DNA of 64,000 bases, from the NCBI RefSeq assembly GCF_003058365.1, contig NZ_CP028858.1:868001-932000 (forward strand). The letters are read 5' to 3'. This DNA comes from Halococcoides cellulosivorans (GTDB taxonomy: Archaea; Halobacteriota; Halobacteria; Halobacteriales; Haloarculaceae). The notes below the pieces were generated by a model. That model searched no databases. It worked only from the letters and a program-made list of their open reading frames with translations, and was not told the DNA's origin. The position numbers were made by a program, and so were the translations under genes. This document shows, one piece after another, positions 8,483 to 17,259 of this stretch. Each line of letters begins with the position of its first letter. Within the stretch, counting starts at the first letter, position 1.

Positions 8483-8992
8483 ATGACCGACCTCATCCTC
8501 CTCCCCCTCGACAGTAGCCCCGCGGCCGAGCAGGCGGCCGACCGCGTGGTCGATGTCGCCGACGAGCGTGACGCGGCGATTCACGCGCTGTTCATCGTCG
8601 ACAAGCGCGAACTCGGCGATCCCGCGCTGTGTAGCACCGAAGTCCTCATCATGGAGTACGAGGACGGTGGGCACGACCTGTTGACTGGCCTCGAAAATCG
8701 GGCCCACGAGCGCGGCGTACCGGTGGAGACTCGCCTGTGCCGTGGCGACCCCTGCGAGGAGATCTGTGCGGCCGTCGAGAAACACGACCCGGACCTGACG
8801 GTCCTCGGCGTCGATATCGAGGGATGCAAGTCGGTGACCCGAACCATGCGCCAGCCGGTCGTCAGAGAGGTCTGTGACGCTGTCGAGAATCAGGAGCCGG
8901 CGTTGACGGTGATCGGTGACGACCACCAGAACGAGCAGGACTCAGCGCCCCTGGAGGAGATCGAGGCGTTCGACCACGTGATCGTTCACTGA
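8483..8992 (+). CDS. UspA-type universal stress protein
   Basis: A single-domain protein of 169 residues, start MTDLILLPLDSSPAAEQA. It has the Usp alpha/beta fold order: strand, a helix after PLDSS, DPDLTVLGVD near residue 110, and a C-terminal strand EPALTVIGDD. The usual ATP-binding GxxG-9x-G(S/T) motif of canonical UspA is not evident, so it may be a non-ATP-binding member. Start ATG 8483 was chosen over the upstream in-frame ATG at 8450 because homology-like sequence begins there. An AT-rich promoter region lies at about 8428-8455. It converges on the heliorhodopsin gene. Confidence 0.8.
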   Translation: MTDLILLPLDSSPAAEQAADRVVDVADERDAAIHALFIVDKRELGDPALCSTEVLIMEYEDGGHDLLTGLENRAHERGVPVETRLCRGDPCEEICAAVEKHDPDLTVLGVDIEGCKSVTRTMRQPVVREVCDAVENQEPALTVIGDDHQNEQDSAPLEEIEAFDHVIVH

Positions 8993-9157: not shown

Positions 9158-9970
9158 TCAGATCGGTGAGTTCAGTGTCCCGAAGTACACCTGCCACGCC
9201 AGGAGGGACTTCGCGACCAGACTCAACAGGATGTACGTCTTCTCGCCGAAGAGATAGTCTTTCCACCGCGAAACCTCCAGATACTGGAGGACCATGTTCA
9301 GTGCAAAGAGGTTGAAAAAGACGAAGATACTGATATAGATGTAGATGACAAACTGGGGGAATTCACCGTCGCTGGCCGTGACCGACCCAATGAACGTGAC
9401 GGCGATGGTGATCCAGGGCACGAGACCGGCGATAACACCCACCCAGTAGGGCGTCCAGTCCGTCTGGTCCGTGGACTCGTTGCGTTGCTCCATCAGGAGT
9501 CCAGCCAGGTTCATCACCGCCACGAGTCCGAACAGCGCCAGGAGGGTCCCGAGGTCCCACACGCCGGCCAGCATTCCGATGATGACGATCATCAGCGAGG
9601 CGCTGACGGCGTACTCGTACCAGCGATACGGGTTCATCCCGCGATTGAGATACGTGACGTACTTGTCGTATCGGACGGTCGCGATGACGGTGTGTGCGAA
9701 CGCCGATATGAAGAGAAATCCAGCGACGAGAAGCGGGAGATTGACATCGACGAACGAGACTGTCTCCGGGAATATCGACTGGGTTGCGGGATCGAACGCG
9801 TACCTGGTGCGCGTAACCGGCCACAGGACGTTGTCGGCCAGCAGTAGCATCGCCACCCCTTGCAGCGCGTGAAGGACAGCCATGACGCTGTTCCAGAGTC
9901 TGAGACGCGTCTCTCGCGCGGATTCGTGCTGTTCGGGATCGGACGAGGTCGAACGGTCCTCGGACGACAT
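9158..9970 (-). CDS. Heliorhodopsin
   Basis: This 270-residue protein has seven predicted hydrophobic helices and an N-terminus rich in Ser/Glu that would face the cytoplasm, opposite to type 1 rhodopsins. The last helix carries LVAKSLLAWQVYFG, with the retinal Schiff-base lysine at Lys254. Helix 3 carries RWYEYAVSASLM, with the Glu119 counterion position. These two signatures are diagnostic of heliorhodopsins rather than bacteriorhodopsin or halorhodopsin. Its role would be light sensing or regulation rather than strong ion pumping, as known for the family. A TATA-like ATATAC lies about 30 nt upstream (about 9995-10003). No retinal or carotenoid gene is visible in the window. It is a single gene, convergent with uspA. 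Confidence 0.93.
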   Translation of the reverse strand: MSSEDRSTSSDPEQHESARETRLRLWNSVMAVLHALQGVAMLLLADNVLWPVTRTRYAFDPATQSIFPETVSFVDVNLPLLVAGFLFISAFAHTVIATVRYDKYVTYLNRGMNPYRWYEYAVSASLMIVIIGMLAGVWDLGTLLALFGLVAVMNLAGLLMEQRNESTDQTDWTPYWVGVIAGLVPWITIAVTFIGSVTASDGEFPQFVIYIYISIFVFFNLFALNMVLQYLEVSRWKDYLFGEKTYILLSLVAKSLLAWQVYFGTLNSPI

Positions 9971-10291
9971 TCGCCTCGAATATCTAATGGAGACTGTATA
10001 TTTCTATGGGTAAATGTATCGTGGTGAGGGTGTTCGTTGGGTGTGCGATGCCCGCGTCGCCGGGTGTCTGCAGTCGGACGGGCCCGATTTACCGGCGATC
10101 GGAGGAACGGTATTGGAATCTGGTCGGAATTTGGGCCTCGGCACTCATAGGGCTCGTCATCGCCGGTGGCTACCCGACTCGGGGCGAGCGCTCGTCATCG
10201 GCCACTCGACAGTACCGCCCGCCAGCCCAAGACCGTTTTCACCCACATCGCCCGCCGACAGACTCGTCCCGATGGCCGCCCAGCGTTCGCC
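9971..10291. other. Non-coding spacer between the heliorhodopsin gene and the 10292 ORF
   Basis: The first 35 nt hold the heliorhodopsin promoter region (A/T-rich, about 9985-10010). An open frame at 10014-10295 contains a short hydrophobic-looking patch, but its composition is not acidic and I do not call it a gene. No tRNA, repeat or hairpin stands out. Confidence 0.5.
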
Positions 10292-10582
10292 ATGAGCGAC
10301 GATCCCGAACGCACGCTCGAGGAGTGGAAAACGTCGATGCAGGACGAACACGACACGGCCATCGCGAACCCCGACCCCGACGCGAGCCACGAAATCGAGG
10401 GGATCACCCAGGTGAGCTACCGCTACACCTTCGCGTACGACGCCGACAGCGACAGCCTGGAACAGACCGATCGCACGCAGGTCGACGAGCCACGCGAACC
10501 GGAGTTGTTCTCGTGTGCCTGTGGCGTCCGGGGGATGACGCGCGCGGAGGCCCGCGACCACCTCGGGGCACTCGACGACTGA
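10292..10582 (+). CDS. Conserved-looking small acidic protein with CxC motif
   Basis: A 96-residue acidic protein (MSDDPERTLEEWKTSMQ...), typical of small haloarchaeal cytosolic proteins. A CxC (FSCACG) near residue 78 is followed by MTRAEARDHL, a helix that may close a small metal site or bear a redox pair. I do not recognise the family. ATG 10292 was chosen because the upstream extension in the same frame is Arg/Pro-rich and not protein-like. Confidence 0.65.
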   Translation: MSDDPERTLEEWKTSMQDEHDTAIANPDPDASHEIEGITQVSYRYTFAYDADSDSLEQTDRTQVDEPREPELFSCACGVRGMTRAEARDHLGALDD

Positions 10583-16071: not shown

Positions 16072-17259
16072 ATGAGCTACACCATCGGTCTCGTCGGCAC
16101 GCCCTCGGCCGGCAAGTCCACGTTGTTCAACGCCGCGACGGACAACGACGTCCCCGAGGGTGCGTACCCCTTTACGACGATCGACCCCTCGATGGGCGAA
16201 GCGTACGTCCGCGTCGAGTGTGCGGCCCCGGAGTTCGGGCACTCCTGTACCCCGAACCACGGCGTCTGTCGTGACGGCGTCCGCTACGTCCCGACCAAAC
16301 TCGTCGACGTCGCGGGGCTGGTTCCTGGTGCCCACGACGGCAAAGGCCTGGGCAATCAGTTCCTCACCGATCTCAACGAGGCCGACGTGCTCGTCCACGT
16401 GATCGATTTCACCGGCGAGACCGATCTGGAAGGCGAACCAGCCGACGATCACGACCCCCGAGAAGACATCGACGTGCTCGAACACGAACTCGATCAGTGG
16501 TATCTCGACATCCTGGAGAAAGGCCTCGAACGGTATCGCTCGGGCTATCACGGGGCCGACGGCGACGTCGAAGACGATCTGGCCGAGCAGATGTCCGCCT
16601 TCCAGATCAGTTCGGACGAGATCACACAGGTCATCCTCGGGCAGGGTCTCGATCCCGATCCCGACACCTGGGACGAGGACGATCGTCTCGCTCTCGCGCG
16701 GGCGATCCGCACACGGACGAAACCGATGGTGATCGCCGCGAACAAGATGGACACCGCTACTGCCCAGGCCAACTACGAGGCGATCACGACCGATCCCGAC
16801 TACGAGCACCTCACCGTCGTCCCGGTGTCGGCCCACGCCGAGAAGGCACTCAAGGGCGGGGCCGACGCGGGCGTGCTGGCGTATCGCCCTGGCGACGCCG
16901 ATTTCTCTGTGACTGGCGATATCGGTGCCGAGCGGCGGGCCGCACTCGACGAGATTCGGGCCTTCCTCGATCGGTTCGGCGGGACGGGCGTCCAGTCGGT
17001 GCTCGAAACCGCGCTGTTCGAGGAGTTGGGTGCGATCGCGGTCTTCCCCGGGGCGGAATCGCCGAAACCCGACGGCACGTTCCTCCAGGACTGTTTCGTC
17101 CTGCCCGACGGGTCGACCGCCGAGGACTTCGCGTATTTCCTGCACACCGACATCGGCGACGGCTTTCTCCACGCTCACGACGTCCGGTCGAGCCGGCAGA
17201 TCGCCGCCGATCGGACGCTCGACCACCGTGACGTCGTCGAGATCACGACGACGAACTGA
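16072..17259 (+). CDS. YchF/OBG-family redox-regulated GTPase
   Basis: A 395-residue YchF-type GTPase/ATPase. The G1 motif GTPSAGKS is at 8-15, DVAGLVPGAHDGKGLGNQFL carries the switch II glycines, and NKMD (G4) appears in the second half. The helical insertion after G4 and a C-terminal TGS domain (ADRTLDHRDVVEI) match archaeal/eukaryotic Obg-like ATPases. It acts on ribosomes or translation factors in the cytoplasm. The length is normal for archaea. It precedes the pyridoxamine oxidase-like gene by 79 nt on the same strand. Confidence 0.92.
   Translation: MSYTIGLVGTPSAGKSTLFNAATDNDVPEGAYPFTTIDPSMGEAYVRVECAAPEFGHSCTPNHGVCRDGVRYVPTKLVDVAGLVPGAHDGKGLGNQFLTDLNEADVLVHVIDFTGETDLEGEPADDHDPREDIDVLEHELDQWYLDILEKGLERYRSGYHGADGDVEDDLAEQMSAFQISSDEITQVILGQGLDPDPDTWDEDDRLALARAIRTRTKPMVIAANKMDTATAQANYEAITTDPDYEHLTVVPVSAHAEKALKGGADAGVLAYRPGDADFSVTGDIGAERRAALDEIRAFLDRFGGTGVQSVLETALFEELGAIAVFPGAESPKPDGTFLQDCFVLPDGSTAEDFAYFLHTDIGDGFLHAHDVRSSRQIAADRTLDHRDVVEITTTN

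Follow-up and report, generated by a model that had tools for sequence, protein, structure and literature searches.

The heliorhodopsin (HeR) of solved structure closest to the protein described here is TaHeR from Thermoplasmatales archaeon SG8-52-1 (PDB 6is6, 7clj, 7u55), to which the HeR of Halococcoides cellulosivorans shows 52-53% structural-alignment identity and TM 0.79-0.82. Equivalents of TaHeR Glu108 and of its Schiff-base lysine are found in the H. cellulosivorans protein and the TM3 sequence pattern is alike, whereas the latter differs in a low-confidence N-terminal tail, a helix 5-6 stretch that is 5 residues longer, and a halophilic host. A haloarchaeal HeR, that of Halorhabdus tiamatea SARL4B, has been expressed and, once purified, was found to absorb at 536 nm (PMC7807009). 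In the genus set to which Halorhabdus belongs (g5), HeRs are about 60% identical to H. cellulosivorans HeR and belong to a different haloarchaeal HeR clade; unlike H. cellulosivorans, their genomes (G049, G078, G088, G139, and G144) carry Brp/Blh in 5/5 cases. Actinobacterial HeRs of the 48C12 and AbHeR type share the family, the topology, the lysine, and the glutamate at about 40% identity. For bacterial HeRs, partners such as glutamine synthetase, photolyase, and an ABC transporter have been proposed from operons or neighboring genes (PMC9529153, PMC9769723, PMC11109279), and none of these bacterial-type operon partners adjoins the H. cellulosivorans HeR gene.

Retinal proteins without a known retinal gene, as in H. 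cellulosivorans, are on record for Rhodoluna lacicola, Saccharibacteria, and Aurantimicrobium minutum. Rhodoluna required added retinal, and A. minutum, without blh and diox1, makes retinal by an uncharacterised route (PMC7734400). The Saccharibacteria rhodopsin binds outside retinal fast, and the same article, citing the TaHeR structure, describes fast uptake of exogenous retinal by HeR via an opening in the protein (PMC9296517). These blh-less bacterial cases are type-1 pumps, whereas H. cellulosivorans is a haloarchaeon with a HeR, a sensory rhodopsin II (SRII)-transducer pair, and a degenerate CrtY.

H. cellulosivorans is a salt-loving, cellulose-eating archaeon of the family Haloarculaceae. 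The window analyzed is the 64,000-nucleotide stretch C1:868001-932000 of strain HArcel1 (genome G000), which is assembled as one contig of 2,723,120 bases and is 99.97% complete. Positions without a contig prefix are those of the window.

Heliorhodopsin gene and its neighbors

The HeR gene was identified at 9158..9970 (-) using PF18761, NF038020, phmmer, and AlphaFold/Foldseek, and coincides exactly with an ORF of 270 aa that starts with ATG. PF18761 (Heliorhodopsin) was the sole Pfam match (E 8.3e-97, profile 1-242/242), the NCBIfam equivalog NF038020 scored 358 bits with a cut-off of 100, and the closest phmmer matches among solved structures were all heliorhodopsins with TaHeR 6is6 on top (E 1.8e-78). 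An AlphaFold model was built from 30 HeR sequences (pLDDT 86, pTM 0.80) and has the predicted seven-helix HeR fold. When the model was compared to the PDB using Foldseek, the best ten matches were all HeR structures (TM 0.78-0.82), and type-1 rhodopsins ranked below them with E near 1e-3. An assignment as type-1 rhodopsin was ruled out by the Pfam result and the Foldseek ranking; domain search and structure comparison both assign the protein to HeR, and the original prediction, made from the sequence without database searches, was borne out on this point.

Lys254 occupies the Schiff-base position within ILLSLVAKSLLAWQVY (S250-x3-K254, the SxxxK of TM7), and Glu119 occupies the TM3 counterion position within RWYEY. 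Both residues are where the original prediction had placed them and are invariant in 30/30 aligned HeRs, a set extending from Halobacteria as far as Chloroflexi and Bathyarchaeota. The inverted topology predicted for the protein, with the N-terminus inside, is supported by homology to TaHeR and by charge bias, with 12 K/R counted in the inside loops vs 2 in the outside loops under the N-inside model. Neither outcome named beforehand as refuting the prediction, a profile match to another family or an N-outside topology, was obtained. Comparison to six relatives gave a dN/dS of 0.09-0.17 and the gene is therefore under purifying selection. The protein is thus firmly assigned as an intact canonical heliorhodopsin (type-3 rhodopsin), a new member of an already known family.

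The nearest genes were confirmed as a UspA-family gene at 8483..8992 (+) (PF00582, E 7.6e-16), convergent with HeR, and a small ORF with one CxC motif at 10292..10582 (+), divergent from HeR and matching neither Pfam nor NCBIfam. Because both flanking genes are on the opposite strand, HeR is a single-gene (monocistronic) unit and both lie outside it. A relative of the small CxC protein in Halosimplex sits 8.7 kb away from HeR. No general conserved partner gene was found at the HeR loci of 41 genomes from 19 genera together with named loci in other contigs, and the Usp, CxC, FAD oxidoreductase, P450, and HTH_10 neighbors were rejected as partners since they are not conserved beside HeR. Of the genes in the window, the one found most often near HeR in other genera encodes a YchF/OBG-type GTPase (16072..17259 (+)); its homologues, with 62-69% identity, are near HeR in f3g36, f10g63, f4g44, and one Halapricum contig, and probably mark a positional relic and no partner. 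The idea that a recurring neighbor family (F2) was a P450 replacing Brp/Blh was dropped, as F2 is YchF.

At some haloarchaeal loci, a type-1 rhodopsin gene is located 1-14 kb from HeR. For L063 (G042), L042 (G100), L046 (G135), and L097 (G362), it is the sole type-1 rhodopsin gene of a genome where Brp/Blh is absent, and its nearness to HeR in several genomes of this kind suggests a shared rhodopsin locus.

Distribution of HeR in Halobacteria and a promoter box in one clade

HeR was found in 41/392 Halobacteria genomes and in 19/86 genera. The gene is present in a haloarchaeal chromosome as first reported, but given this count and the purified H. tiamatea protein, haloarchaeal HeR is not new. 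In the tree of haloarchaeal HeRs, Halococcoides falls in a fully supported clade that draws on four or more families, which makes lateral transfer of HeR likely. In G040 (L075), HeR is split, and its two pieces are separated by about 1 kb that contains apparent transposase sequence; in Halorubrum kocurii (G355, L073) the frame is interrupted by TAG.

Upstream of the H. cellulosivorans gene, a conserved box, CCCATAGAAATAT, is located at 9998..10010 (-), at a distance of 40 nt from the start codon. The 13-nt consensus, YCMAYAGRNNTAT, starts 34-44 nt ahead of the HeR ATG in this one HeR clade and is absent from the promoters of other HeR clades. The strict form was found at 12 HeR promoters (the H. 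cellulosivorans window, L049, L050, L058, L065, L068, L072, L100, L102, L103, L106, and L107); the consensus was derived from these promoters, so that the evidence lies in its rarity elsewhere and its conservation amid diverged DNA, not in its presence there. One further strict occurrence was found in 2.35 Mb of strands scanned (strand-bases), which took in about 0.5 Mb of the H. cellulosivorans genome, and the box was accordingly rejected as a general haloarchaeal promoter. The window has one match to YCMAYAGRNNTAT vs 0.03 expected. When one mismatch was allowed, the box was present in 16/22 clade members, with 71 scattered one-mismatch matches elsewhere. Apart from the box, the DNA upstream of HeR is visibly dissimilar across the clade.

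The position of the box fits a BRE/TATA core promoter, which would give a short-leader or leaderless transcript, and it is reasonable to infer that a dedicated TFB or regulator acts there. At two other places in the H. cellulosivorans genome (L170, L156), a strict or near match was present but gave no clear candidate for co-regulation. The HeR promoter box is a new small finding, and it offers a handle on HeR regulation that is independent of the gene neighborhood, which says nothing here.

Retention of the box amid dissimilar upstream DNA bears on whether HeR is a functionless relic, kept by chance once retinal synthesis was lost. The split gene of G040 and the TAG of G355 show that HeR has been disrupted in some relatives; in H. 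cellulosivorans, however, the ORF is full-length with dN/dS about 0.1, and such a relic is very improbable.

Retinal and carotenoid genes

The HeR gene had been described as isolated from retinal genes, and among the ORFs scanned (about 5.5-15 kb) no blh, brp, or carotenoid gene was found beside it. This holds locally and genome-wide, but the local isolation is uninformative, as other haloarchaeal HeR loci are also without a conserved partner; the informative fact is the genome-wide one, namely that Brp/Blh and CCD are absent and CrtY is degenerate. Brp/Blh (PF15461, BCD) was detected using Pfam in 244/392 genomes and not in H. cellulosivorans, where a search with a haloarchaeal Brp/Blh alignment gave nothing even at E 10 (positives 1e-98 to 1e-145). 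The genome was also searched for an RPE65/CCD homologue and none was found. It has two phytoene/squalene synthase genes. Pfam PF18916 lycopene cyclase matches were too weak, and an alignment of haloarchaeal CrtY was used instead, which detected a CrtY-like gene for a 226-aa membrane protein at G000:C1:1083716-1084396 (+) (L152:7717-8397; E 1.6e-21), the only lycopene-cyclase-like gene found in the genome. Cyclases of the CrtYcd type depend for their activity on the PxEE motifs and the PWDN...GVWxYG region. The middle of the CrtY-like protein aligns well, none of these elements (the two PxEE motifs and the PWDN...GVWxYG segment) is retained, and the protein scores below the NCBIfam cyclase domain cut-off, whereas intact haloarchaeal CrtY scores above it. 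With both PxEE motifs lost from the sole CrtY homologue, beta-carotene is unlikely to be made, and the protein would be a relic or else a lycopene cyclase put to a new use. A distinct lycopene-cyclase-like protein, about 110 aa long and with a single domain, is widespread in haloarchaea (e.g., L078:1457-1801 (+)) and was not detected in H. cellulosivorans. As judged from homology, the genome has no recognisable retinal-making enzyme.

A second retinal protein is encoded in the same genome. An SRII-like rhodopsin and a HAMP-MCP transducer are located at G000:C1:466471-469448 (L034:9472-12449, (-) at L034), with the transducer gene overlapping the start of the SRII gene, in a genome without Brp/Blh. 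The SRII-like protein is intact, retains the retinal lysine in AKVGF, and has the SRII structure 2ksy as top PDB match (E 4e-45).

Type-1 rhodopsins were called at E about 1e-30 or better across the 392 Halobacteria genomes. BCD was present in 236/258 genomes with a type-1 rhodopsin vs 8/134 without (Fisher p 3e-68, which ignores phylogeny). Among the 41 HeR genomes, 30 have BCD; for those without a type-1 rhodopsin the figure is 0/5, and an RPE65 homologue is found in 1/5. Type-1 rhodopsins track Brp/Blh and HeR alone does not, which with five genomes and non-independent samples is a pattern, not proof. Type-1 rhodopsins without Brp/Blh occur in 22/258 genomes (e.g., G204, G081, G075, and G146), and these are candidates for scavenging or for a novel retinal enzyme.

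The HeR-only genomes, where HeR is intact with its lysine and the retinal genes are missing to the extent just given, would fit a HeR that works at least partly without retinal, or that senses or buffers environmental retinal, with its presence independent of retinal synthesis. That is quite improbable: it rests on 5 genomes, and the invariance of Lys254 and Glu119 in all 30 HeRs implies selection for the Schiff base.

Alternatively, retinal may be synthesized in the cell itself by an enzyme belonging to no known family, which might start from some precursor instead of beta-carotene; HeR and SRII would then be filled without scavenging. A. minutum provides a precedent (PMC7734400), HeR and SRII are both intact, and the 22 genomes above have type-1 rhodopsins without BCD. 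Endogenous synthesis is nevertheless unlikely, given the degenerate state of the sole CrtY homologue and the absence of RPE65/CCD, and no obvious candidate enzyme adjoins HeR, SRII, or the crtY-like gene among their partly annotated neighbors. Given that CrtY is degenerate, scavenging is favored over an uncharacterised cleavage enzyme.

Proposed function of the heliorhodopsin

With a probability of roughly 0.6, the intact HeR gene has a transcript to itself, started from a conserved promoter of its own, and its product is an N-inside photoreceptor that regulates a non-adjacent partner, with HeR and SRII filled with scavenged retinal. The transcript from the single-gene unit would be translated into a photoreceptor of seven helices whose N-terminus lies inside. 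In this protein, Lys254 would bind all-trans retinal through a Schiff base, and Glu119 would serve as the counterion. Light would then cause a conformational change in HeR and, through it, regulation of a partner encoded elsewhere. The coupling of light to regulation had been raised in the original prediction and is plausible. Both the HeR apoprotein and the SRII-type rhodopsin would be loaded with retinal scavenged from organisms that share the brine (algae, or other haloarchaea), as the most likely source where no retinal synthesis is recognisable. What we infer for this protein is that it binds retinal, that the retinal is scavenged, that it signals, and that it has a partner. Three considerations temper the scavenging part. 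Synthesis in A. minutum without blh or diox1 means that missing known genes are no proof of auxotrophy, the CrtY-like protein could hold a new activity, and there could conceivably be a plasmid outside the assembly.

For the class as a whole, halobacterial HeR may be a photosensor that has spread widely by transfer, operates independently of retinal synthesis by the host and uses retinal obtained by scavenging; one clade would have a dedicated promoter element, YCMAYAGRNNTAT, read by a specific TFB or regulator common to hosts of several families; this wider proposal is tentative and somewhat doubtful. For H. cellulosivorans, two findings go beyond the identity of HeR: a gap in known retinal genes, seen in the complete genome of a cultured organism, and the promoter box upstream of HeR. 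This haloarchaeon is in culture and fully sequenced, and it combines a HeR and an SRII-transducer pair with the lack of any recognisable retinal pathway; since retinal can be supplied to or withheld from the culture, the use of scavenged retinal and the switching-on of HeR are directly testable.
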